A DNA stretch of 64,000 nucleotides, from positions 34,301,554 through 34,365,553 of the forward strand of contig OX485803.1 of assembly GCA_950295325.1 (NCBI GenBank). The letters run 5' to 3'. Below are positions 43,299 to 58,557 of this stretch, in pieces. Position numbers and translations under genes: made by a program. Origin of the DNA: Polytrichum commune (lineage: Eukaryota; Streptophyta; Polytrichopsida; Polytrichales; Polytrichaceae). The notes under the pieces were generated by a model. The model searched no databases. It was not told the origin of the DNA and saw only the letters and a program-made list of their open reading frames with translations. Within the stretch, counting starts at the first letter, position 1. Each line of letters begins with the position of its first letter.

Positions 43299-43850
43299 AA
43301 TATAAATCACAAATCACAAATCAATGCATTTGTAGTATTGGTTCAAACATAGATGATGGTTGAGAGTTTACAAACGCACGTTCGTAAATCATAAATCAAC
43401 ACATTTGTAGTATTGGTTGAAACATATATGGTGATTGAGAGTTTACAAACGCGCGTTCGTAAATCACAAATGAACGCATTTGTATTAATGATTCAATCAC
43501 ATGTGATGGCTAAGAGTTTACGAACGTGCGTTCGTAAATATCACTTGTGAGTATGGTCTATGTATCTAGCAATATCCATAGATAGACATACATCTATGCA
43601 TAGACCCAAACAATATATCATAGTGATATACGAACGTGCGTTCGTAAATACCACCTATGAGTATGGTCTATGTATCTAGCAATATCCATAGATAGACATA
43701 CATCTATGCATAGACCCAAACAATATATCATAGTGATATACGAACGTGCGTTCGTAAATACCACCTATGAGTATGGTCTATGTGTCTAGGAACATCCATA
43801 GATGGACATACATCTATGCATAGACCCAAACAATATGTCATGGTGATATA
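43299..43850. repeat. Palindrome satellite, 110-bp tandem unit (target of the hAT insertion)
   Basis: After three divergent units of about 70-75 bp, CGAACGTGCGTTCGTAAATA begins exact 110-bp units at 43521, 43631 and 43741. The next unit start, expected at 43851, is found at 58558 beyond the transposon. Linker: ATGGTCTATGTATCTAGCAA and CATAGATAGACATACATCTA. Confidence 0.95.
43843..43850. other. Target-site duplication, left (GTGATATA)
   Basis: Eight bases identical to 58550-58557, as expected of hAT insertion. The same octamer occurs naturally just before CGAACG in neighbouring satellite units. Confidence 0.95.
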
Positions 43851-43934
43851 CAGGGTTGTCTATTGTGTCGTGACGGAGGGTAATCCCAGCATAATGTCGT
43901 GCCGTCACGACACGTATCCGTCACGACATTATGC
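43851..43934. promoter_or_regulatory. Left terminal inverted repeat and subterminal motifs
   Basis: The terminal 13 bp match the right end. Just inside are repeats of TGTCGTGACGGA: forward at 43866-43877, inverted at 43918-43929, near-inverted at 43902-43913. The last two lie in a hairpin with 13-bp arms (43889-43901 and 43922-43934). The right end carries the same dodecamer at 58488-58499. Clustered subterminal motifs are the usual binding sites of hAT transposases via the BED finger; that role is inferred here. Confidence 0.8.
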
Positions 43935-44082
43935 CGGATGCTGTCTTTATCCTGACGGACTTGAATTTTACCGATTTTTTTGTGTAATTACATTAACCCA
44001 ATTCGGACACGTAGGATTTACAATGTCCACGTGTGATGACATGTCAACAAAGTAAAGGTAAAGTGGGGAAAATTTTACTAGA

Positions 44083-44456
44083 GCCCGTCCCCCCCCCCCG
44101 TCCGCTCCCGCTCCCCTCCCCGTCCCCAACCCGTCCGCTTCCCCGTCCGCCCCCCCGTCCCCAACCCGTCTGCTTCCCCGTCCGCCCCCCCGTCCGCCCC
44201 CCCCCCCCCCCCCGTCCGCTCCCCCCCTCTCCCGTCCGCCCCCCCCCCCCCCCCCCCCCGTCCGCTCCCCCCCTCTCCCGTCCGCCCCCCCCCCCCAGTC
44301 CGCCCCCCCGTCCGTCCGTTCCCCCGTCCGCTCCCCCGTCCGCTCCCCCGTCCGCCCCCCCGTGCACTCCCCCCCCTCCGTCCGCTCCCCCATCCTCTCC
44401 CCCGTCCGCCCCCCCGTCCGCTCCCCCGTCCGCCCCCCCCCCCCCCCCCCCGTCCG
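44083..44456 (+). repeat. C-rich minisatellite array 1
   Basis: Irregular units of CCCGTCCGC(T/C)CC with long C-runs. It ends about 10 bp before the TATA-like box of the transposase gene. Proline-rich or glycine-rich frames across it are artefacts. Confidence 0.95.
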
Positions 44457-44466
44457 ATTCGAATAC

Positions 44467-44473
44467 TATAAAT
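44467..44473 (+). promoter_or_regulatory. TATA-like box of transposase gene
   Basis: TATAAAT, about 235 bp before the start codon, between array 1 and the gene. A 3' splice site (TATTTGCAG, ending at 44690) with a pyrimidine-rich lead lies 13 bp before the ATG, suggesting a 5' UTR intron. Confidence 0.5.
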
Positions 44474-44703
44474 TGAGGGTTCAAGGTGCCATTTTTGCCT
44501 CCAGTGACATAGTGTGTCTCAAGTCTTTTGATTCTCCTTTGAGGAGTGAGGATTGAATGCGTGACACCCGAATGCAGAGGATACTTTGTCCAATCTAGTG
44601 ACTGTGAATTAGGGTTGCCATTGTGGCACTCTTGAACAGGACCTAGTATGCGATCAAAGTTACTTGCTCTAACTTGTTTGTATTTGCAGGTTTTGTTGAA
44701 GTC

Positions 44704-47700
44704 ATGCCACGCCGAAATGATGCATGGGATCATTGGTACGAGGATAAGGGGATGGTTCCCGGTAAATCACAAAGGCAGGTTAAATGTAGGTTTTGCCCGT
44801 TCGTCATATCTTACCGAGGAAATAGAATGTTGGCCCACCTTGGTTATAGACCTCCTGTAGGGGGTGCTTGTGATGTTTCCACATGTAGGATGGTTCCCCC
44901 GCATATTAGGGTCTTGTTTGAACATTGCGGAGGCATTGTGCCCTTACATGTAGGCATTGTAAATGAGGACTCTCCGGTGCCAGATATTGTACCTCTGGAG
45001 CCTATTATAGCGGACTCCGTAATTAGTGAAACAGAGCCTTTGCTTATGTCCCAATCCACTCAACATTCTAATGTTGTGATATATGGCACACCTCCTCGTG
45101 AACTACGTCAACTCAACATAACGGAGGGGTTCAATGTGTCAACAAAACAACTCCTTGATAGAGCATGGGCAACGGCTTTTTATGAAGCTAACATTCCTTT
45201 CAACATTGTGAGACATCCTGCATTTGTTCATGCTGTGCGTGAAACTGCCCGTCATCGAATGCTAGCCTACACACCACCATCGTACAATGCCATCCGTACG
45301 AAGTTGTTAATTGATAAAAAGGTTGACCTAGATAGGCAAGTGAAGGAGAAGCTGGGGAATTCCGTTGACAAATATGGCGTTACAATATGTTGCGATGGAT
45401 GGGACAACGTGCAAAACCGACCTCTCCTAAACGTTCTTCAATGTGGCACAAAGGGAGACGTTTTCTTGGGTACCATTGACACCACGGGAAATCACAAGGA
45501 TCATGTCTACGTTGCTGCTCAAATTCAACCATTTGTGGAAAAGGTTGGTCGACATAATGTGGTCCAAGTTTGCACCGACAATGCCCCAGTTATGGCCTCC
45601 GCTGCTCGCGACTTGATTCGAGCAAATCCCGATCTATATTTTCAAGGATGTGCTGCACATTGCCTAGATCTCCTCTTAGAAGATTGGGGGAAGGAGGAAT
45701 GGGTGAAAAAGTTGGTAAAAAAAGCGCGCCATATTTGTGTATTTGTTAAAAACCATCATGCTTCTCAAGCTATATTCCGGAGGTTGTCACCAAATCTCTC
45801 ACTCCGCCTACCTGTAGAGACCCGTTTTGCAACGAACTTCATCATGATAGAACGTCTTCTCCAAGTACGCAATGCTTTGGAAAGAATGGTGGTTGATGAG
45901 GATTGGCCTACTCTAATGCGTGATATGAGGAGGAGATCTCGCACCTCTTACATGAAGGGCTCTGCTGTGCGAAGCTTTATACGTTCTGATGGATTCTGGA
46001 ACACGTGCGAAAATTTCTTGTATATGGTGATCCCGGTTGTTAAAGCTCTTCGTGTATTTGATGGCAAGGCGCCTGCAATGGGAATGGTTTGGAGGGTCAT
46101 GCATGATTTACAAACCCATATTCGTGGATTCAGTAAACCTCCATTTCGCTTAAGCCCTGAGCTTGCTGCAAATGCTATGCTAACGTTTCAAAATAGATGG
46201 AGGTTGATGTTGAATGATTTACATTGGGCTGGAGCGATGTTAAATCCGCTTCTACGTGGTTGGACCCCACTCCATGAGGATGACAATTCGAGGACAATCC
46301 TAAATCGAGTTCTTCGCAGGCTTGCTCAAGATGAGGACACTTATGTCCAAATCCTCCACCAGTACCAAGATTTCCTTGAAAATCGAGGGCTTTTTGCTGA
46401 TTCTACTGACCCGAGCGTGCATGCCGCACCTCTCCATGAATGGTGGGATGCAATGGGAGGTGGAGCTAAAGCCCTCCAAACAATAGCAAGACGTATCCTT
46501 GCACAAGTATGTTCCGCATCCGCATGTGAACGCAATTGGAGCATGTACTCATATGTTCACAACAAGAGTCGCAATCACTTGAAGCATAGTCGTGCTGAGG
46601 ACCTCGTCTACATATATACCAATAGTAGGCTCATTCGACATCGCAGGGGCCCAAGACCTGCGCAATGGTACGAATTGAATGAGGTCCATTCTGACGATGA
46701 CCTTGATGAAGAAGATGACAACGAAGATGACGTGGATCCAAATGATAGGGCCGGAAATGATGATGACAACAATGTTGATGACATCGACTTTGATTTGGAT
46801 GACCTTGATTCTGAAGATGAGGATGACAATGGTGGTGATGGAAACCTTGGGGTGTTTGATTTTGATGAACCGGATATCCCCCAACATAACGACGGAATGC
46901 ATGATGATCATGAGGGGTCTATTGGAGGACCGCCTTTTGAAACTCTCCACACTGGACAAGGGTTTCGCCCTGACCATAATGTTGCTATGGGGGCAAGTGA
47001 GAATGTAGGAATTGAAGTAGATTCCTTGCAACCTCGGAGCGATTATCTTTCTTTTGGTGAAGGTGACAATGTACTACCCGCAAATGACCCAACGCACGTT
47101 CAACAGGATCCACTTCTAGCCCGAGTACATTCTGAATCCATAGACGCCTTCCTCATATCCAACCATCGTGTAGAAGATCAAACGCCTAATGTTCCTGAAA
47201 TACCTACAACTCGATTCCGTGCTCTTCAAAGAACTGCATCCACCTCTACGGTGCAAGTGCATGCACAAGGTCAACGTCGTCCTCTCACTCGAAGTATTGC
47301 CAATACTTCTAGATTGGGTGTTTCACGTGCAACTACGGTGGGTGCTACTTTGGTTGCTATACACAATGTTTCAAGAAATGTTACTACTGAGGCGCCACGT
47401 CGTCAATCTGTTCGTCGACATGTTGTTGAGAACATACCAATTGCAATTCCGTCCGCATCAGTTTCACTTCCACATAGTCAATCCAATGGAACAGGTGGCC
47501 TTGGAATTGGAGGCGGAAGTACAACGGGGGATGTTTTTATAGATGGAAGTAGAGATGAAGTGCATTCAAGTCGTGGTACGGGTGGAGGGCGTCAGAGAAC
47601 TACGAGAGGTGTCAAACATACTAGGAAGAGGTATCAGGGAAGATCGCTTCCGTTTACTGCTGAAGACTACAATGAAGATGAGGGTAGACCACACCTAGAT

Positions 47701-47886
47701 GAAAATGGCATACATGATGCAGAGGGCTCCCGGCCGACCAAAAAGATAATTACCTCACAACGTGACCGAGAGTTGCATCTTCGGAGCGCGACTCCCCAAA
47801 CGGATGATGATTGCAGCACAGACGAGTCTGAAGAGGATCCAAGATGTGTCGAAGCAAATGATCCCACAGTACGGATTCGAACGTAA
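44704..47886 (+). CDS. hAT transposase, BED finger, intact, with long acidic C-terminal extension
   Basis: A 1060-residue protein. I start it at ATG 44704 (MPRRNDAWDHWY) because the frame upstream runs through an apparent splice acceptor. Residues about 6-60 form a BED-type zinc finger (W8, W11, C28-x2-C31, H45). About 170-320 is the DUF659-like part of the RNase H-fold: CCDGWDNVQNRP carries D231 and VCTDNAP carries D292. GCAAHC is the conserved C316-x2-H319. The last catalytic residue is E609 in SASACERNWSMYSYVHNKSR, within the hAT C-terminal dimerisation domain (about 590-650). So all three DDE residues are visible and the frame has no lesion. Family members usually stop near here. This one continues about 400 residues with a D/E-rich stretch (about 660-725), a low-complexity region, and basic KHTRKRYQGR near 975. 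It probably cuts and pastes the 14.7-kb element in the nucleus. It converges with the minus-strand RING-like gene. Confidence 0.95.
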   Translation: MPRRNDAWDHWYEDKGMVPGKSQRQVKCRFCPFVISYRGNRMLAHLGYRPPVGGACDVSTCRMVPPHIRVLFEHCGGIVPLHVGIVNEDSPVPDIVPLEPIIADSVISETEPLLMSQSTQHSNVVIYGTPPRELRQLNITEGFNVSTKQLLDRAWATAFYEANIPFNIVRHPAFVHAVRETARHRMLAYTPPSYNAIRTKLLIDKKVDLDRQVKEKLGNSVDKYGVTICCDGWDNVQNRPLLNVLQCGTKGDVFLGTIDTTGNHKDHVYVAAQIQPFVEKVGRHNVVQVCTDNAPVMASAARDLIRANPDLYFQGCAAHCLDLLLEDWGKEEWVKKLVKKARHICVFVKNHHASQAIFRRLSPNLSLRLPVETRFATNFIMIERLLQVRNALERMVVDEDWPTLMRDMRRRSRTSYMKGSAVRSFIRSDGFWNTCENFLYMVIPVVKALRVFDGKAPAMGMVWRVMHDLQTHIRGFSKPPFRLSPELAANAMLTFQNRWRLMLNDLHWAGAMLNPLLRGWTPLHEDDNSRTILNRVLRRLAQDEDTYVQILHQYQDFLENRGLFADSTDPSVHAAPLHEWWDAMGGGAKALQTIARRILAQVCSASACERNWSMYSYVHNKSRNHLKHSRAEDLVYIYTNSRLIRHRRGPRPAQWYELNEVHSDDDLDEEDDNEDDVDPNDRAGNDDDNNVDDIDFDLDDLDSEDEDDNGGDGNLGVFDFDEPDIPQHNDGMHDDHEGSIGGPPFETLHTGQGFRPDHNVAMGASENVGIEVDSLQPRSDYLSFGEGDNVLPANDPTHVQQDPLLARVHSESIDAFLISNHRVEDQTPNVPEIPTTRFRALQRTASTSTVQVHAQGQRRPLTRSIANTSRLGVSRATTVGATLVAIHNVSRNVTTEAPRRQSVRRHVVENIPIAIPSASVSLPHSQSNGTGGLGIGGGSTTGDVFIDGSRDEVHSSRGTGGGRQRTTRGVKHTRKRYQGRSLPFTAEDYNEDEGRPHLDENGIHDAEGSRPTKKIITSQRDRELHLRSATPQTDDDCSTDESEEDPRCVEANDPTVRIRT

Positions 47887-48585
47887 TGGTTTTGCACAAA
47901 TGTGGTATTTTGGTGCTCCCACGTACTCCCATAATTTATTACTTACGTCAAAATTGATACAAGTTACAACCTTAGGGCCTTCGGTAAGACATTTAGACCA
48001 CAAAGCGAACGTTACCTTCGAAGTTGTATCATTTTATTATAGTAATAAAATTATTTATTGCATGTTTTTTAAAATTTTAAAAATACAATATGGTTGTCAA
48101 CTTAGCATTGCAATTAATCTCCAACAACATGTTATGCCTTTATTAATTACTATTTTGTATTATTCTTACTGTAAATGGAGTTTTATGTTTATTTATTGAG
48201 TTTCTTAAAGAAAATACTTTTATAAATATTACAATCCCCTATTGCTCGATTGTACATGCTTTGTTGGTGACATCCTCTTTTTGAGGACCTTTCTATCCGT
48301 TTTATATAATTATATCTTTATGTGGTATTCAATATTGACTATGTAGTCAATAGTACTTTTGGTTAGACTATCATATGAATTACTAATATTCAAGTAAGTT
48401 TATAAAAGTTTTGAATAACATTAAAACATGTGGCATCCATATGCTATCTTTTACACGATCTTAGAAATGACAATTTGTCGGTAAATCCTCTTTATATTAC
48501 ATATTCTTTGAACATGAAATATGTTCATTGTGTCCAAAGTCTTCTTCCGTTCCTATACAACTTTCTAAACATGGTACAAAAATGC
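47887..48585. terminator. Convergent 3' region with polyadenylation-like signals
   Basis: The 700 bp between the transposase stop and the stop of the minus-strand gene are AT-rich. AATAAA lies on the plus strand at 48044-48049. AATAAA-type signals lie on the minus strand at about 48054-48059 and 48188-48193. The two genes would end transcription head-on in the same interval. Confidence 0.5.
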
Positions 48586-50894
48586 CTAATCCGAATCTGA
48601 ATCGAGGTCTATTCTAGCTGAAGTAGATCCTCGTCGTGCTCGAGATGATTCCCCCGCTTCCATGCTTCGCGTTGTTCCACGGGTGAGGTATGGACGAATA
48701 CCAGGAGACAATGGAACGGCATTACGTGGTCTAGGCCCATCATTTAGCCATCTCAATACCACATCATCCGCAACTCTATACAAGAGTGTATCAATTGCAG
48801 CCAACTGCAGCCTGTTCTTATGGTACCCCACCTCTAACTGCAATTCATATCTCGGATCCCGTTCCGTAGGCATGTCATCTGCATCTTCTTCCAAATCATG
48901 CTCCGATACTGATTCGAGACTTGCTGCATTGTACAACCGAGGCTGAATGCCTCTCTTTAATTGTCTGCTGGTTGTATCCCAATGTCATTCAAGAGTTTGG
49001 TATAAAAATCTTTTCAAGCCATTGATCGGGGGGCTTGTTGGGATACAACTCGTCTGCAACATACAAAATTTGACGTGCATTCCGTGTCCAGTCGCCATCT
49101 CTGTTCTCGTGCCATAGCTCAATCTTGGCACAATTGTATAACTAACTCCACTCAACATTCTCCCCATCAAACTCTTGAAGATCGAAGGGAAAGTCCCATG
49201 GCTTTAATACCCAGTCGTTAGGCATATAATCCCGAAGGCCAAATTGGACGTACAAACGAGGGTGGAAGGGTGATCTGCAATGAGGACATTGGCGTTTCTT
49301 GATCATATTCCCTATTAGACATTATGGATGGAATTGGGCCCCACATGATCCAACTTGATAGCATTCTTCCGGGCCAAATTGAGATTGGCAAATCGCACAC
49401 GCGGTTCCGTCGAAGACCATTGTATGTGGATTTGGCCATAACAACTCACCCCTCATGCGGAATGGATATTCATGCACTTTGGTCACATCCCAATGGTGAT
49501 CTGGGTCGGTCACTTGACGCCAATCGATGCTCCCGTTTGGCAATGTCACCTCATTAGTTATATTCCACCTACTAGGGTACATATGCTCATCTTCTGGCCA
49601 TGACGTGAGCATCATATTCCGCATTCTCTGCTTGCGGTTCCATTCCTTCTGGATGCTCTCAAACTCAGCTTCAAATTGACGAGCCTTGGCCATAGCAAGC
49701 AATGTGCTTGTCCTCATATTCTTGCGCTCCAAATTCGCATCCAACAGGAATTTCTTCAACCTTGCATTCTGCTCCTCCAGTCCGCCAATCTTGGCTTCGT
49801 GATCAACAACCACTTCATTGACCACTTGAAGTTGTTGTTGGATGTCCACCACCTCCTTCTGCAAAGCCTCTATCTTTCCTCGCATTACTTCATTCCTCAT
49901 ACATACTTCCAGAGCTTGTGACTTTGCAATCTTGGCCTCCTGTAAAGCTGCGTCCCTCTCTGCTTCCAAAGACTGAAGGTTAAGTGGTGTACTACTTGAA
50001 CTACTACCCTCCCCCATCGTAAGTGTTGCAACTCGATTTTCCAACTCGAAAATCATCGTTTTATATTCACGAATTTCCAACGCATGTTATTTACGCAATT
50101 ACTCCATTCTGCTCTCCATCGGGTCCGCTCCAAGTTCACCAAGGTTTACCTCGTCTAGGACCTCGTTAACCATGTTGTTGATCAGGTTGTTGACCTCGAC
50201 ATTGCATCCATGCCCTCATCCATATGCTCAAACGCCTCATCGATGGCCATCTCCACGTCATTGGCTGGTCGTTTACGATTACGTGGTTTTTTTGGTTCCC
50301 GACCCTCTGGAATTGGGGCCCCAGGCTCATCCACTAGTCGAGGATTCCTCCTGAACCACTCCGGAACGGAAGTGTATGGAATATCTGGAACTGTGCATTT
50401 AGTGAATGCAATTCCAATACCCCAAATTTTTGATTATGCAGAGCAGCCAAACTTGACCAATCCACCCTAACTCGCAACACGTGCTCCGCATATATCATAC
50501 ACGCCACCGACTTTGGAATTGCACTCTTGGGCCATCTATCCAAATTGGAGATACCTCTAAGTATCGTTAGGAATCTCCATTTTGCCTCCACGTCATCAAG
50601 CTGCATATAACTCGCACTGATGGCCTTGCAATGTCGCTCGTGACAAGGTCTTGGCCACAACCGATCAAAGTGAGGGAAGCCCACGTACTGCATTGCAGTC
50701 TTCGCTGACCACGGTTGTGGTACATTCTCCCAACCTGCCCTGGCTTTTTGGGTGTTGTCATCATAAACATCCCACTCCAACCCAGCAGCCTTGCGTACAT
50801 GTGATCTGTGACAACCTGATCCTCCACTTGTACTTGCCATGTCTCCAGATCCTCCACTTGCCATGTTTGGAAATCCTTCACTTGCCGTATCCAC
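48586..50894 (-). pseudogene. Coiled-coil / RING-like zinc finger cargo gene, broken
   Basis: One minus-strand gene, about 760 codons, readable from 50894 to 48586 in four frame segments. Segment 1 (to about 50422): Ser/Gly-rich start, then WDVYDDNTQKARAGWENVPQ and a helical region. A frameshift at a C4 run (50420-50423) leads into VPEWFRRNPRLVDEP and basic KKPRNRKRP. A second frameshift near 50203 leads into a long coiled coil (about 50110-49600). Then comes a RING-like finger (about 49405-49276): CAIC, C-x5-C, QFHP, C, and QCPHC. In-frame stops: TAA 50099-50101, TAA 50087-50089, TAA 49322-49324 (inside the finger), TAG 49142-49144. A third frameshift near 48990 and a TGA (48985-48987) precede the last segment, which ends IDLDSDSD. 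Each stop sits where Gln or Arg would fit and is one C-to-T change from CAA, CAG or CGA. The start is uncertain: the first in-frame ATG is 50865-50863, while 50894 is GTG. A RING finger suggests ubiquitin-ligase type function, but that is inference. No host homologue is recognised. Confidence 0.75.
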
Positions 50895-51309
50895 CCAAAT
50901 TGTAGTTTTTAATTCTAATCTAGAACTCTAATTTTTAAATTACTAATTGCACTTCATAATAGTGCTACAAAACATCCAAGCATACACTTCAAAATAGTGT
51001 TGCTATGGAATTAGTTCAAAAATGTCGTTAAAATTAAAGTTTAAAAATTCAGCACACCCTTCGAGCACCCCGGTACCAGCGCTTACGGAGAGGCCAGTTG
51101 ACTGGGCGCGTCACAAGGAATATGCCAAAAAGGCAATATGCCACGTCACAAGGGAACGGGTCCACGTGGATCACACCCACAAACAGGTGAAAAAAAAGAG
51201 TATAAAAGGATCCCAAAAAAGGGATCCTAAACTCCTCCGAGCACCCCGCTACCCCGCACTCTGTAGTAGAGGAGGGTCGTCCGGGCGCCCACAAGGAGTG
51301 GAGTGGGGT
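50895..51309. other. 5' flank of RING-like gene with local duplication and small hairpin
   Basis: A GAGCACCCCG(G/C)TACC block and a following GGGCGC..CACAAGGA block occur twice, about 177 bp apart (51062 and 51239). At 51208-51229 the arms AGGATCCC and GGGATCCT face each other across A6. A plus-strand TATAAAAGG lies at 51201; no TATA in the orientation of the RING-like gene was found. Confidence 0.6.
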
Positions 51310-51317
51310 ATGTAAGT

Positions 51318-51882
51318 GGTTCCCACCCTGTTCGCACCCGTTCCCCACCCAGTCCGCACACGTTCCCTACCGTCCGCGCCCGTTCCCGCCCAGTCCCACC
51401 CGTTCCCTCCCGTCCGCTCCCGTTCCCGCCCCCGTCCGCACCCGTTCCCCTCCCAGTCTGCCCGCGTTCCCCTCCCAGTCCGCACCCGTTCCCTACCGTC
51501 CGCACCCGTTCCCCCCTAGTCCGCACCCATTCCCGACCGTCCGCGCCCGTTCCCCCCCAGTCCGCACCCGTTCCCGACCGTCCGCGCCCGTTCTCCCCAG
51601 TCCGCACCCGTTCCCCCCCAGTCCGCACCCGTTCCCGACCCCGTGCGCACCCGTTCCCGACCGTCCGCGCCCGTTCCCCCCAGTCCGCACCCGTTCCCGT
51701 ACGTCCGCACCCGTTCCCGTACGTCCGCACCCGTTCCCGTACGTCCGCACCCGTTCCCGTACGTCCGCACCCGTTCCCGTACGTCCGCACCCGTTCCCGT
51801 ACGTCCGCACCCGTTCCCTTACGTCCGCCCCCTCGTTCCCTACGTCCGCACCCGTTCCCGTACGTCCGCACCCGTTCTTTAA
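51318..51882 (+). repeat. C-rich minisatellite array 2
   Basis: Units mixing CCCGTTCCC and CCGTCCGCAC. From about 51700 to 51820 it is a perfect 20-bp repeat (ACGTCCGCACCCGTTCCCGT). It lies about 420 bp upstream of the RING-like gene. The 228-codon glycine/arginine and 286-codon proline/arginine frames across it are artefacts of the repeat. Confidence 0.95.
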
Positions 51883-51904
51883 AGCTTCTATATTTGATGG
51901 GTTG

Positions 51905-52376
51905 TCCTTTCATTCAACAAATCACATGTTTGTGCTTCAACCTTAGTGGTTCGTATGGTTTCACAACCCACACGCATTCAAATGTCATTTTAATTCAACA
52001 AAATACATATTTGTGTTTCAACCTTTGTGGTTCATATGGTTTCACAACGCATTTCAGGCATGCGAATGCCATTTTCATTCAACAAATCACATATTTGTGC
52101 TTAAACCTTAGTGGTTCGTATGGTTTCACAACCCACACGCATTCGAATGTCATTTTAATTTAACAAAATACATATTTGTGTTTCAACCTTTGTGGTTCAT
52201 ATGGTTTCACAACGCATTTCAGGCATCCGAATGCCATTTCATTCAACAAATCACATATTTGTGCTTCAACCTTAGTGGTTCGTATGGTTTCACAACCCAC
52301 ACGCATTCGAATGTCATTTTAATTCAACAATGTACATATTTGTGTTTCAACCTTTGTGGTTCATATGGTTTCACAA
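51905..52376. repeat. 165-bp tandem repeat, about three units
   Basis: ATTCAACAAATCACAT recurs at about 51912, 52077 and 52242. Each unit has two related halves (CTTCAACCTTAGTGGTTCGT and TTTCAACCTTTGTGGTTCAT, each followed by ATGGTTTCACAAC). It ends in a telomere-like CCCTAAACCCTAAACCC at 52377-52396. Confidence 0.88.
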
Positions 52377-52396
52377 CCCTAAACCCTAAACCCTAC

Positions 52397-53454
52397 GTCT
52401 ACGTCATTTCAAATTGCTACCACATATGTGCCATTGTTTTGTTCTCATCTCATGTAGAAGTGTTTCCATACATGGTTTGAGGGTTTAGGTTCTCAGCTTT
52501 CCAACGAACCCACCCGCTTTTTTTTACGATGCCTACAGTGAAAGATAAACGTTCGCAAATTGCGAGGACTACTTCAAGTTGGCACAATCTCTACTTAGAC
52601 ATATAACTTATGGTATACATTGGGGTTTTAGAAGGGGTCATGAACGCACGTGATTTTCAAACATAATGTAGAGTGCATCCCCCGAGTTCCCATAGACTTC
52701 ATAAAGATATCTTACCAACACCTTACACAAATTAGAACATTATAGAAAAGCAAATTAATCTGGTCCACATTGATATTAAACTAGGGAATTGGTGTGGGCT
52801 TAAATTTAATGTGGCCCACATTAGTGATCAATTGGGGGGGGTGCACTATACTAAATCCGTATGAGTATATGTGAGTGCACAAATGAGGTATTGATTTGAA
52901 CTTTGTTGTATTATGTATACATATTCTTCATAGAATTATAAGTTGTAATTATGTAAATATATAGAATAATTTTAAAAAATATACAACATCTCTACTAACT
53001 TGTATGGTAGTGTCACTAGATTTTATAGAATAAGGTTTATTTTATTTTAGTATTGGCTTAAACTGGTACATAAAAAGAACCAACCACATGTGAACATACG
53101 ATCTTACATATCATTTGATGGTAGACTTCAAAACAATAATTGCATTAGCTTTTATGACATGTATTACAAATCAGATTATGGGAGGATTGAATGGAAACAT
53201 ATGCTTAGGGACTTGGAAAAAGGGTCGGACGTGGCCTACCATGACATTCTTAACAAATTTGATTTGATTTGGGGGGTCAAAGGTCTTATTGTGACCCGTA
53301 GCAACTTAGTCCCTACTTGGAAGGATAGGCCTCATTTGAGCATTATTTATAGATTTCCACTTAGGCTGCGCTGTTTCGGCTGGGTTGGTTGTATTTTGAA
53401 TTTGAATTTTCAATTTGTGCCAAAAAAAGAATAAGACATGTATTGCAAATCTAA
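52397..53454. other. Spacer inside the hAT element with one unassigned frame
   Basis: A plus-strand open frame of 114 codons (53090-53434, GTG at the head) includes FYDMYYKSDYGRIEWKHMLR and DLEKGSDVAYHDILNKFDLI. It looks mildly protein-like, but I recognise no family, start or promoter. The rest is AT-rich with nothing seen. Confidence 0.35.
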
Positions 53455-54040
53455 GGGCCGGTTCACAATATGGCCAAACTTTGAGAGGTTCAACATTTGG
53501 ACCAATGAAAATGCTGAAATGCCCAAAGTCCGTCCTCTCGGCCTTCACACTAGAGGCCGAAGTCCAAAGGACGTCGCCTCCAAAAGAGCCTAGGTGGCAA
53601 CACTTTTAGGAAGTTATGGCGCCAAGAGTTCGGCCTCTCGAGCAAAGTTTGGGTATAGCAAAATGCTCAACCCAAACTTCCGTCGAGAGGCCGAACTTTT
53701 TTTCATTAAAATAATCAATCATTGACAAGATCTTGGCCGTTAGATTGGAGGGGTTATTTTGAGCAAGGAATAAAGTGGCATGCTCCTTTGAGTTTGGACT
53801 TTGGGCTTGGCCTTTGGAGGCTTCACACTTTGGCCATCCAAGCCGAGAGGCCGTGGGAGTTCATGGCCAAAGGTTTGGACTTTGCGCTTGGCCTTTGGAG
53901 GCTTCACACTATGCCCAACTAAGGCTATCCTTACTATATTTTATTGACTATTTTCAGTTCATTTCTTTGGACTCTCAACAAAGTTGGGCCACTCAATCGC
54001 ACGGCCTCTCGACTTGGACGGCCATAGTGTGAACTCGGTC
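53455..54040. mobile_element. MITE nested inside the hAT element (Tourist-like)
   Basis: Left end GGGCCGGTTCACAATATGG preceded by TAA. The right end, reverse-complemented, is GACCGAGTTCACACTATGG. The termini, and TAA at the left junction, fit PIF/Harbinger-type MITEs; the right-hand TAA is not preserved. The interior is rich in GGCC and GAGAGGCCG motifs, with a partial internal duplication (CTTGGCCTTTGGAGGCTTCA at about 53802 and 53887). Confidence 0.55.
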
Positions 54041-54061
54041 ATTTACACTTTTTTTTTAAAG

Positions 54062-54216
54062 TTTAGACATAGTGTCCGTTTTTTGGCTCTCAAAAATTCA
54101 TATGAAGTCCAAAAAACGAGTTCTTGGTATCCATGGATAGGTAATGAAGTCCTCTACATGAATATGCAATAATATTTCTACTGCCAGAAAATACATGGCC
54201 GCAATTCCACGTTGTT
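54062..54216. repeat. 155-bp block, copy 1 (leads into array 3)
   Basis: From TTTAGACATAGTGTCCGTTT through GAATATGCAATAATATTTCT to ATGGCCGCAATTCCACGTTG. About 90% identical by eye to 57712-57866, in the same orientation. Each copy runs straight into a C-rich array. Confidence 0.92.
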
Positions 54217-54740
54217 CCCCTGCCCCCTTCAACCCGTTCCCTCCCGTCCGCCTCACGTTCCCCACCCGTCCGCTCCACGTTCCCCTCCGTGCGTTCCCGT
54301 TCCCTCCTGTTCCCTCCAGTCCGCCCCGCGTTCCCCTCCCGTCCGCCACACGTTCCCCTCCAGTCCGCCCCGCGTTCCCCTCCCGTCCGCCACACGTTCC
54401 CCTCCAGTCCGCCACACGTTCCCCTCCCGTCCGCCACACGTTCCCCTCCCGTCCGCCCCGCGTTCCCCACCCGTCCGCCCCGCGTTCCCCACCCATCCGC
54501 CCCTCGTTCCCTCCCGTCCGCCCCACGTTCCCTCCCGTCCGCCCCTCGTTCCCTCCCGTTTGCCCCACGTTCCCTCCCGTCCGCCCCTCGTTCCCCTACC
54601 GTCCGCCCCACGTTCCCTCCCGTCCGCCCCTCGTTCCCTCCCGTCCGCCCCACGTTCCCTCCCGTCCGCCCGAGTTCCCCTACGTCCGCCCACTCGTTCC
54701 CTCCGTCCGCCCCCGCGTTCCCACGCTCCCCATACGTCCT
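54217..54740 (+). repeat. C-rich minisatellite array 3
   Basis: Units of about 18-23 bp, CGTTCCC(C)TCCCGTCCGCC with CC/AC variation. It ends about 60 bp before the TATA box of the kinase-like gene. The long P/R-rich frames on plus and G/R-rich frames on minus are artefacts. Confidence 0.95.
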
Positions 54741-54798
54741 TTTCGTGCCCCATGTCAAATCCGACCGGGATCCCATAATGATTGTGCACCGCTTTGCC

Positions 54799-54806
54799 TA
54801 TATAAA
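54799..54806 (+). promoter_or_regulatory. TATA box of kinase-like gene
   Basis: TATATAAA in a GC-rich context, followed 25-45 bp later by a pyrimidine-rich start-site-like region (TTCCCCTCACTTTCCTCTCC). The leader to ATG 55052 contains a threefold CACTCACTCATTTCTACATT repeat (about 54964-55034). Confidence 0.65.
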
Positions 54807-55051
54807 GCCGTGGGGCTTTAGTTCCCCTCACTTTCCTCTCCTCCCACCACAAAGGGACCCGAGACCTTGTTGCCGTCCCAAGGACAGCGGCACCGCGCGG
54901 GTCTCAGGGGGTTTGGGAGGGCAGGGCAAATTGTGGGGGAACCCTCGCAATTTTTTTTCCAGATTCACTTGCTGATTTCTACATTCACTCACTCATTTCT
55001 ACATTCACTCACTCATTTCTACATTCACTCACTCACGCGGGTTTTTTCACG

Positions 55052-56967
55052 ATGGAGGGGGAGGACATTGCTCCTTACCAAGACGAGGATACGAGGGTGC
55101 ACAGTGCTTGGCTCCAACGCACTCCATCTGCGTATACTGGAGAGGGTACGGGAAGCGATGCCGGAAGTGGAAGTACTGCAGCCCGTCCCCCACGTCCAGA
55201 TCCTTTTCGGTTTGGCGAAGAGTTCTTTGTTGTTGGTCATTCAGGAGGCAACCAAACACGTGGAAGCCGTGGAACACGTGGGAGTCGGGGAAACAGTGGC
55301 CTTAGAGGGAGAACAGGAAGGGGACCAAGCTCAGGCAGTTCTACAGATATATATGCAGCCACTCGTGGTGAGTCCGTGCCACCACGATCTCCGACACGGC
55401 AGACATCAAGACTGGAGAGCCCTGCACGTGATGTACCTCAGGGTTCGGAGCATGGTGAAAGACGGGGACAGAAACGCCCAGCAGTTTCGGAAGGGACGGA
55501 GGAAGGGTCCGCGGTATCAGGTTCGCAATCAAGGAAAAAGAAAAATAGAGGCAAACGCGACCCGCAGATCGATGAGGCTCGAAACCATTGTAGGGTCGTG
55601 CTGTTGGAGTGGTTTAGAAATAACAGCATGGTTTATTTGGAAATAAAATACCTCAATGATGGTACAAAGGGTTTAGAGTTGGTCAGGAACGAATTGATGC
55701 TTATTCTCACGGAAGCCACGGCTGGACCGGAGTTTGAAGAAGCTAGGGGCATGAACGATTCGGACACCTGGATTGAACAACAAGCCAGGGAAGCAATCTA
55801 CAATCCAACATTGGCATATGATGCTCTGCATCCTGGCGAGGGAAATAGTAGTGGCAGGAAGTCCGAGTTGTACATGAAGCTAGAGAATTGGAAAAAAGGC
55901 GTAATAGCAGCAAAAGGAACATCCGCCCGCAACCTTCCCATTTTTATTGACAGGCAGATGGCAGACAACATTGCCACTCAGGGCCGGCAGGGTGTCATAT
56001 GGTTGCCTAGGAATGCGGAGATCAAAGCCTTGGATAGGAAATCTTCCAAGGGACCTTCGGAGTGGTGCGGAGAGTCACAATTCATGGAGCATCATTCATC
56101 CCTAGCTGGATAGAGTGGGCTGGGAAGACCATGAAGGCCACGAATAGTCTGGAGAACCGAAAGGAGCGTTCAATTGAAGCATTGGCGTGTCCAGTAGATC
56201 ATCCTGGGGTAATCAAGCTACAATACCTCAATATGAAAACATACGAATCCTATTCGATGTGGTGGAATGGAGGCTCCTTGAAGAACATGAGGGTCTATGA
56301 CTTCAGCGTTCCGGAAACCCACGAGCGCACAATCCTTCAAATGTCTGGGGCGGACTTTGAAGCACGGAAACGGTTGGTTGTATATCGAAGGCATCGAGCT
56401 TATTTGGCATGGGCTCTAATGTGCATTGTGGATGTAATGCACAAGCATGACGTGTTGCACAATGACCTTAATCCCAACAATGTCATGCTGCATTTCCCAC
56501 AAGACCGTGATAACACGGTTTACATTGGTGTGTGTGATTGGGGCATGGCATCCTGGGGAGGTGAAGACGCACCCTCCAACTATGGAAGAGATTCAGTGGA
56601 TGAGATGAACAAGCACAAAGCAAAATACAACTGTGCTGGTCCAGAATTATTCCATGTACGAGGGCAGCGTGGAACATCCACCTCTCCGGTGAGGATGGCT
56701 CGGAAACATAGGCACACGTTTCTCTCGGAGTCCTTCTCAATGGGTGCTTTGGCAAAGAAGATTTATGCCAGGGATGCGACTTCCCCCTTGTTTCAGCTAA
56801 ACAGTGATCCAAATGGCTTGAATATGCGGTTTGAGTTAGCATTGGATTCATTGACGAAGACCAATCCAGCGGAAAGGTCAACCATCACACATGTAGTGAA
56901 CATTTTGAAGTCCCCTCCATACAACATGGTTAACCCGACAATGTGCTTCCGTGACACTGTAAAATAG
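55052..56967 (+). pseudogene. Protein-kinase-like cargo gene with one frameshift
   Basis: ATG 55052 opens a 353-codon frame; a second frame carries on to TAG at 56965-56967, giving about 640 residues in total. Residues 1-170 are Gly/Ser/Arg-rich and disordered with basic SRKKKNRGKR. 175-330 is an unassigned helical region (HCRVVLLEWFRNNSMVYLEI). Then comes a divergent kinase fold. A glycine-loop-like KGPSEWCGE lies at the break near 56075. A beta-3-like WAGKTMKA and a helix-C-like RSIEAL follow, then HPGVIKLQYLN and MWWNGGSL. The catalytic loop is HNDLNPNN (Asp codon 56464-56466), in place of HRDLKPxN. The metal-binding motif is CDWG (Asp 56536-56538), in place of DFG, followed by AGPELF in the APE position. 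A one-base deletion in the glycine loop explains the frame change. A 41-base GT-AG removal would also restore frame but is shorter than usual plant introns. Activity is doubtful because the catalytic-loop Lys is replaced by Asn. I see no resemblance to plant receptor kinases. Confidence 0.75.
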
Positions 56968-57711
56968 ATTTTTTTTATTTTTTTTGCAGCAATTTTGAAT
57001 CATACCAATTTTGGAACCGTTGGAGATGTAAATAAAGCCATCATTTTTTCATACAAAACTTGTATATTGTATGAGGTTTATGGATCTTAGTGCAATGTTC
57101 ATACTCCATGAGGCTTTTGCTCCATAATCGAGAAGAAGTCTATGGGAGGCTAACCAAGGTTCTCGCCTCTCGTGAGGCCACATCGTTCTTTCACATCGTT
57201 GTTATCACATCCATGTGCTAAGTTCAAGTTACCTATAGTTGTTTGTGATATGTCTTGCCAAAATGCAGTTACCTATATTTATTCTAATTTTGGTATGCCA
57301 CAAAATGTAGTCAACTATAGTTATATCTAGTTAACTAAAGTTGAGCACAATATTGCAATAGTTATATCGGTTGTACACGTGATCCTCAACATCTCTAAAT
57401 GTTAACTTTCTTCTACTCCCCACATATTGCACACTATAAATGTTAAACGTGTTAAATGTTAACAAAATGGTATTCCCTTCTTTGTGAATATGACTCTATA
57501 AACGTTAACGGATGAAATACAACCATAATATGGATGATAAAAACTACACATCCAGTTACATTGATTCATATTCACTCGTGGTTTGTAAACTTGATATTGA
57601 ATAAAGTTTTGATTGGGTGTGCAATTTTATGAATGGTATTCTCTCACAAGGACTCTTCACAATTGCTTATATTTATATTTATATAATTCAGAAACACTTT
57701 TTTTTGGATGT
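56968..57711. other. 3' region and spacer of kinase-like gene
   Basis: AATAAA at 57031-57036, 64 bp after the stop, is a good polyadenylation signal. The remainder is AT-rich with nothing coding. Confidence 0.55.
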
Positions 57712-57866
57712 TTGGACATAGTCTCGGTTTTTTGGCTCTCAAAAATTCATATGAAGTTCAAAAAATGAGTTCTTGGTATCCATGGATAGGTAATGAAGTC
57801 CTCTACATGAATATGCAATATTATTTCTACTGCCAGAAAATATATGGCCGCAATTGCACGCTGTTC
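57712..57866. repeat. 155-bp block, copy 2 (leads into array 4)
   Basis: Second copy of 54062-54216, same orientation, ending ATGGCCGCAATTGCACGCTG and running into array 4. Confidence 0.92.
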
Positions 57867-58293
57867 CCCTCCCCCCCGCTCCCCTCCGCGTTCCCCCGTC
57901 CGCTCCAGCGTTCCCCCCTGTTCCCAACCCCCCTCCCCCTCCGTCCGCTCCACCCCCCCGTCCGCCCCACGCCCCACCCCCGTCCGCTCCACCCCCCTCC
58001 CCATCCGTCCGCTCCACCCCCCCCCCCCCCCCCGCCCCCGTCCACTCCACCCCCTCCTCCGTCCGCTCCACCCCCCACCCCCGTCCGCTTCCCCGCCCCC
58101 TCCCCCTCCGTCCACTCCACCCCCTCCTCCGTCCGCTCCACCCCCCACCCCCGTCCGCTTCCCCGCCCCCTCCCCCTCCGTCCGCTCCACCCCCCCTCCC
58201 CCGTCCGCTCCACACCCCCTCCCCCGTCCGCTCCACCCCCCTCCGCCGTCCGCACCACCCCCCTCCCCCGTCCGCCCCCGTCCGCCCCACACC
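57867..58293 (+). repeat. C-rich minisatellite array 4
   Basis: Units of CCCCCCGTCCGCTCCAC with C-run variation, plus a duplicated internal segment of about 81 bp (CTCCTCCGTCCGCTCCACCC through CCGCCCCCTCCCCCTCCGTC). It stands about 255 bp from the right terminus. Confidence 0.95.
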
Positions 58294-58479
58294 CTCCTTA
58301 GTCATGTTTTTCTACTTTGATTTTAACAGAATGATAAACACAATGGCAAAATGGTTTACTTGGCAAGGGAAATATGCACATCCACGTCGGCGTTTTCTGC
58401 CACATAGGACGCCACCTTGGCAAGAAGGTAAGTATTTTACCCACCCTAGTCCATTCACCCTATGTTGACCCTACGTGGA

Positions 58480-58549
58480 CCCTATTGTGTCGTGACGGAG
58501 GGGTCTGTCACGGCACGACACTGTCATGACGTCGCGATAGACAACCCTG
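58480..58549. promoter_or_regulatory. Right terminal inverted repeat and subterminal motif
   Basis: Contains TGTCGTGACGGA at 58488-58499, the imperfect palindrome TGTCACGGCACGACA at 58506-58520, and the terminal ATAGACAACCCTG, which mirrors the left end. Confidence 0.85.
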
Positions 58550-58557
58550 GTGATATA
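58550..58557. other. Target-site duplication, right (GTGATATA)
   Basis: Identical to 43843-43850, and followed directly by CGAACGCACGTTCGTAAA, the next satellite unit. Confidence 0.95.

Follow-up and report, generated by a model that had tools for sequence, protein, structure and literature searches.

Cut-and-paste transposons are usually small. Within the hAT superfamily (Ac/Ds, Tam3 and Tip100 type), they are characterised by a transposase with a DUF659 and a C-terminal dimerisation domain, short terminal inverted repeats (TIRs) of the CAGGG type, 8-bp target-site duplications and small gene-less derivatives. Elements of other superfamilies, such as MuDR, Pong and CACTA, encode an accessory protein next to the transposase, and we know of no kinase or RING gene among them. 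The element analysed here occupies positions 43851-58549 (14,699 bp) of a 64,000-nucleotide stretch of the Polytrichum commune genome (GenBank assembly GCA_950295325.1, contig OX485803.1, positions 34,301,554 to 34,365,553 of the forward strand), referred to below as the window. It is of a giant hAT type, whose family shares the features just listed but differs from other hATs in having two extra genes and a length of 13-17.5 kb.

Few described systems resemble this arrangement. A survey published in 2018 covered 276 hAT sequences of plants; its longest consensus is Chlamydomonas Gulliver at 7,144 bp, about half the size of the giant elements, and it found no hAT in the moss Physcomitrella (PMC6027215). 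ToxhAT/ToxTA of wheat-pathogen fungi is likewise gene-bearing, 14 kb long and formerly called a hAT, but PMC12506042 gives it a TA duplication, 74-bp TIRs and a single copy, and proposes that it is a non-autonomous Tc1/mariner element. The same paper describes the Starships, which are also giant cargo-bearing eukaryotic transposons, but rely on a tyrosine recombinase and live in fungal hosts; none of the three proteins considered here has a Pfam match to a tyrosine recombinase domain of the Starship captain kind. Fungal hATs that carry histone H3 similarly multiply a non-transposase coding sequence, yet according to PMC6710886 that sequence was captured from the transcript of a known host gene, and in one species it exists as hundreds of copies, which repeat-induced point mutation has inactivated, whereas two genes are involved here and no close host parent emerged from the genome searches described below. 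No hAT with a kinase gene came to light among the abstract beginnings that made up the open-access literature searched, and the whole word 'hAT' is absent from the portion of PMC6431247 available.

In our reading, the window element belongs to a family of autonomous giant hATs with three genes (complete copies of about 13-17.5 kb). Besides its transposase gene (T), the family would have two accessory genes of long standing that work for the element, a kinase-like gene (K) and a RING/coiled-coil gene (R). We put the probability of this reading at roughly 0.8. The features on which it is built are as follows.

43843-43850, no strand: target-site duplication, left copy, 8 bp, GTGATATA (sequence read directly)
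43851-43863, plus strand: left TIR, 13 bp, CAGGGTTGTCTAT (sequence read directly)
44704 (ATG)-47886, plus strand: hAT transposase T, 1060 aa, open and intronless, with an acidic C-terminal tail (single open frame, Pfam)
48586-50894, minus strand: RING/coiled-coil gene R, broken in the window, in pieces 48586-48936, 49322-50080 and 50334-50894 (open reading frames, alignment)
55052-56967, plus strand: kinase-like gene K, frameshifted in the window, in overlapping frames 55052-56113 and 56062-56967 (open reading frames, Pfam, alignment)
58537-58549, minus strand: right TIR, 13 bp, exact reverse complement of the left (sequence read directly)
58550-58557, no strand: target-site duplication, right copy, GTGATATA (identical to the left copy)

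A first-pass annotation, made from the letters of the window alone, had claimed matching 13-bp termini of the CAGGG type, a perfect 8-bp duplication and an intact hAT transposase, and all three claims hold. The ends are exact inverses over 13 of 13 bases, GTGATATA stands on both sides, and the transposase frame is open, with DUF659 (E 3e-34) and Dimer_Tnp_hAT (E 2e-9) each scoring above the Pfam cut-off. T contains the motifs CDGW, TDNA, CxxH and CERNW, which we take to be its catalytic set, and it is open in other copies too, at 1061-1065 aa. An N-terminal BED zinc finger is common in hAT transposases, if not universal; T has no Pfam zf-BED match at E<=1, and a C..C..H-like stretch is visible by eye only. 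Past the dimerisation domain, T extends into a long, acidic and Ser-rich tail that is a plausible kinase substrate. The annotation had also placed a RING-like coiled-coil gene and a kinase-like gene inside the same termini. Both are indeed present, but both are broken in the window copy: R has five stops when aligned to an open copy, and K has one. Elsewhere R is open at 777 aa (copy L001) and K at 635 aa (copy L003). The terminal sequence CAGGGTTG fits the hAT pattern [T/C]AGNGNNG, as given in PMC6027215.

The host sequence at the insertion site is a 110-bp tandem repeat (43519-43851). Adjacent 110-bp units hold an uninterrupted GTGATATACGAACG at 43623 and 43733, and the same sequence lies to the right of the element from 58550, so an empty site is found next door to the window element. 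The element thus landed within a satellite-like array, and similar repeat sequence continues past its right end.

The linkage of the three genes was examined across the 408-Mb assembly (64 contigs, seven of which, at 42-78 Mb, together make up 406 Mb), in which the window lies on contig C1. LEAFY domains match this genome at four places, and one LEAFY exon is nearer to entry 4bhk, from Physcomitrella, than to the four other LEAFY structures listed, in keeping with a moss host. The search with T gave 70 matches (70 of 243 candidates scored), R gave 127 (146 of 146 candidates scored), K gave 132 (131 of 213 candidates scored), and a decayed relative of T, introduced below, gave 131 (147 of 147 candidates scored). 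From the best 119 of these last 131 matches, the 12 weakest being excluded, we took as giant-type the 102 T copies with less than 39% identity to the decayed relative. When R was counted within 12 kb and K within 22 kb, both genes were found near 75 of the 102 copies, R only near 13, K only near 6 and neither near 8; among the last group, five have R or K at 13-26 kb, judged by eye on the lists, and three have none. In the opposite direction, merging left 103 R matches and 114 K matches; 14 of the former and 31 of the latter, a minority in both cases, have no giant-type T in range. The first-pass annotation had asked whether the three genes travel together in independent insertions, and had regarded the cargo as a chance nested insertion should other copies of the termini always enclose only the transposase, or should the extra genes turn up elsewhere without these termini. 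The counts show the genes travelling together, and the units described next each have their own duplication.

The ends were examined at 31 loci (the window, five whole copies, 19 further copies and six copies of a second layout). Identical 8-bp duplications were found at 22 and duplications with one mismatch at two, while four have unlike flanks and three lack a partner end in the stretch fetched; since loci with detectable genes or ends were selected, this proportion does not estimate a rate for the whole genome. Three of the 22 have the same duplication, CTTTTTGG, and are counted as a single triplicated segment, and the distinct perfect insertions therefore number 20 rather than 22, each with its own 8-bp sequence. 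The 24 elements with perfect or one-mismatch duplications measure 13.3-17.5 kb, lengths in the class 2 defined below being obtained by arithmetic. One of them, a one-mismatch locus at 28.0 Mb of contig C3, has T and K and no R match. When the flanks of one copy are joined, uninterrupted repeats elsewhere match the resulting sequence at up to 92% over 172 of 172 bases, as expected of a related empty site; for a second copy the match reaches 82% over 170 of 172 bases. With the repeat units beside the window element, the duplications and empty sites that the annotation had proposed looking for are both in evidence.

Two further observations were made on contig C1. Between 21867927 and 21967824 lie the three giant copies that share CTTTTTGG and also share one layout, which suggests that this segment was triplicated after insertion. 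At C1:7131761-7133784, two pieces of one copy's kinase gene have the left terminus of another copy between them, which looks like an insertion of the family into itself.

The family occurs in three gene layouts, which have their ends in common and each of which retains T, R and K. With T oriented on the plus strand, and with cluster counts resting on the best 70 of 243 T candidates, the commonest is class 1a (T+ R- K-; 36 simple clusters). Class 1b, the window type (T+ R- K+), is represented by 14 simple clusters and, within a double cluster, by two more copies; it differs from class 1a by inversion of a segment of about 3.4 kb containing K. Class 2 (K+ T+ R-) shares 87-90% protein identity with the class-1a references in T and 79-83% in K; duplications were found in all six copies examined, five perfect and one with a single mismatch. 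Pairwise distances of T, R and K among six copies correlate at r 0.98-0.99 (exact permutation counts 3, 5 and 7 of 720), and at 0.76-0.92 when the most divergent copy, from class 2, is removed. This agreement is as expected if the genes are inherited as one unit.

The same ends also enclose short elements. Ac/Ds is the familiar precedent, in which full elements and small derivatives have common ends. The left 300 bases of the element returned 638 first-look candidates in the genome; among the best 40, which were scored, 34 have no other family features within 20 kb (T features being the best 70). A sample of eight further left-end copies yielded five gene-less elements with perfect 8-bp duplications and three without an end within 1.3 kb. 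Hence the same ends bound both giant elements of autonomous type and small derivatives, which are presumably mobilised in trans by T.

L094, L095, L098, L100 and L101: short derivatives with the family ends, 1.0-1.3 kb (perfect 8-bp duplications)

In open copies, the C-terminal half of K contains motifs that we read as those of a protein kinase, namely a Gly-rich loop, a beta-3 Lys, HNDLNPNN (HxD..N type), DWG (DxG type) and an APE-like PELF motif. Across 60 copies, HNDLNPNN is present in 52 and DWG in 55, and 13 have an in-frame stop within the catalytic-loop stretch. The full 635-aa protein has no relatives in the PDB at E<=0.01; the C-terminal 301 aa of the window K have weak matches to kinases there (best E 0.0023). 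R is organised as an N-terminal part, which has no Pfam match at E<=1, a coiled-coil-like stretch and a RING of the form CxxC...C-G-A-Q-F-H-x2-C...CxxC, related to that of RNF38 (PDB match, E 8.6e-5). Seven of its zinc ligands are retained in most copies. No host parent of R was found in the genome search, in which every candidate was scored, and no close one of K among the best 131 of 213 candidates, a scope within which a parent could be missed. The next K matches below the element copies are three decayed genes with stops (L077, L078 and L079), 28-32% identical to K, that belong to a second hAT-linked family.

This second family gives some insight into the age of the association. At the first of the three loci, a decayed hAT transposase, whose main pieces are 30-45% identical to T, lies about 2 kb from the kinase in a head-to-head arrangement. 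The second has a short match to the T N terminus near the kinase in the same layout, and at the third no T match was found in the stretch fetched. Genome-wide, the family comprises 25 T relatives and at least 51 K relatives (from the best 150 of 267 K candidates). Eight of the 25 decayed T have a decayed K within 6 kb, all eight head-to-head; 2000 random placements gave a mean of 0.04 such pairs and a largest count of one. The pairing of K with a transposase is therefore seemingly older than the giant family, and the kinase association looks to predate it. K may be old enough to count as a core gene of a hAT lineage, in which case the label 'cargo' undersells it.

Taken together, the recurrent three-gene units between the same ends, each with its own duplication, agree with the first-pass proposal of a cargo-bearing giant hAT lineage. 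The annotation's further suggestion, that the accessory proteins perhaps influence host signalling or protein turnover, is a conjecture. T would bind the shared CAGGG ends and move the element by cut and paste, producing the 8-bp duplication; the ends and duplications are observed, and the enzyme action is that expected of the superfamily. The anatomy of the copies places K and R in the same moving unit, and the decayed second family shows that K belongs to an older hAT-kinase lineage. If both genes work for the element, K would most likely phosphorylate T, whose tail is acidic and serine-rich, or a host silencing or repair factor, and so set when transposition succeeds. R could then be a ubiquitin-ligase-like or scaffolding partner of K. 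More tentatively, the family may represent a deep plant hAT lineage with its own kinase as a core transposition factor, joined later by the RING-like protein.

To what extent K and R are under selection bears directly on the possibility that they were caught long ago and have been carried without benefit to the element, persisting because autonomous copies replicate whole. Pairwise ratios of nonsynonymous to synonymous substitution rates (dN/dS) between classes are about 0.5 for all three genes, and are probably inflated by post-insertion changes. Amino-acid changes are depleted in shared relative to single-copy variants for T (59:53 vs 97:42, p 0.006) and for R (74:51 vs 108:39, p 0.014), in tests that treat sites as independent. 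A fixed-difference test is significant for T as well (p 0.014 and 0.003). From these sequence comparisons, constraint on T appears clear and that on R, from one of the two tests, modest.

Several observations weigh against working roles for K and R, and some of them are what passenger genes would be expected to show. For K, the depletion in shared variants is not significant (56:37 vs 84:38, p 0.20), nor is it in the kinase domain of 60 copies (p 0.47). K variants present in at least six copies are depleted (36:30 vs 123:53, ratio 0.45, p 0.033), although this bin was picked post hoc; variants in 3-5 copies show no depletion and if anything look enriched (25:5, ratio 1.88). Class-1 variation in K looks near neutral, with ratios of 0.93 for single and 0.56-1.32 for shared variants. 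For K and R as a whole, fixed differences have ratios of 0.37-0.55, not significantly different from those of private variants (p 0.42 and 0.70 for K; p 0.72 and 0.79 for R). The evidence for constraint on K is thus weak, resting on the deepest split and on motifs common to the old family. Stops are found in 13 of the 18 R copies examined. Both domain assignments fall below the curated Pfam cut-offs (K, Pkinase E 2.6e-6, 27.5 vs 31.7 bits; R, zf-RING_2, 24.7 vs 27.3 bits), and a single-sequence structure prediction of K gave no usable model (predicted local distance difference test score, 33). All 18 R copies have Ala at the fourth zinc ligand, where we take the eight-ligand RING pattern to call for His, and R lacks both the profile score and the full set of eight ligands by which a RING E3 ligase would be recognised. 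Moreover, the 31 K matches without T in range include, besides 13 with R in range and three in the decayed second family, 15 (of the 114) with neither giant-type T nor R; 17 of the 25 decayed T have no K relative within 6 kb among the best 150 of 267 K candidates, and no R match was seen at the three decayed loci examined.

Despite these points, we consider carriage without benefit unlikely. Passenger genes would be expected to degenerate or disappear, whereas many copies still have long open frames for K and R, and all three genes have been retained across three gene orders. In a second family, homologs with about 30% identity to K stand beside a hAT transposase in a constant arrangement, and the shared variants of R are depleted of amino-acid changes, as given above.

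A benefit mainly to the host, with K and R as captured host genes amplified in Pack-type or transduplicated style, is much less probable still. DNA transposons do capture host genes, including the fungal hATs with histone H3 (PMC6710886), but the best 131 of 213 K candidates include no close host parent, and the matches that come next belong to the decayed hAT-linked family. The weakest alternative, in which a normal hAT acquired its kinase and RING genes through nested or neighbouring insertions of other mobile elements, might be suggested by the length of the element, its many tandem arrays and the inversion of the kinase segment between subfamilies, but we reject it for the family as a whole, given that T, R and K are found again and again at almost the same spacing (in many copies, 2749 bp separate the matched stretch of T from that of R) in three-gene units with the same ends and one 8-bp duplication each, at 20 distinct perfect insertions. 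Single copies may nonetheless have later insertions inside them.

The window element also contains the following tandem arrays; none has a strand assigned.

44084-44456: C-rich CCCGTCCGCCCC tandem array near the left end (tandem repeat scan)
51319-51877: C-rich 20/40-bp tandem array (tandem repeat scan)
51908-52379: 81/165-bp tandem array in the middle segment (tandem repeat scan; matched in other copies)
54233-54722: C-rich 22-bp tandem array ahead of the kinase segment (tandem repeat scan)
57870-58288: C-rich tandem array near the right end (tandem repeat scan)

C-rich arrays of the CCGTCCGC type thus lie near both ends and between the genes, and in other copies overlapping array matches are found at the edge of the inverted kinase segment. 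Such arrays could have driven the kinase-segment inversions. Long open frames arising from them are taken as meaningless.

Overall, our analysis suggests that K and R may be working parts of the element and not accidental baggage. If so, the element would be a cut-and-paste transposon that carries its own phosphorylation control: its kinase would act on the transposase, or else on proteins of host silencing or repair, and thereby enable 15 kb of DNA to move efficiently. The residence of kinase-like and RING-like genes through changes in gene order, together with the older kinase link, makes transposon-encoded signalling directly testable. Annotators of moss genomes should be aware that the kinase and RING open frames described here belong to a transposon.

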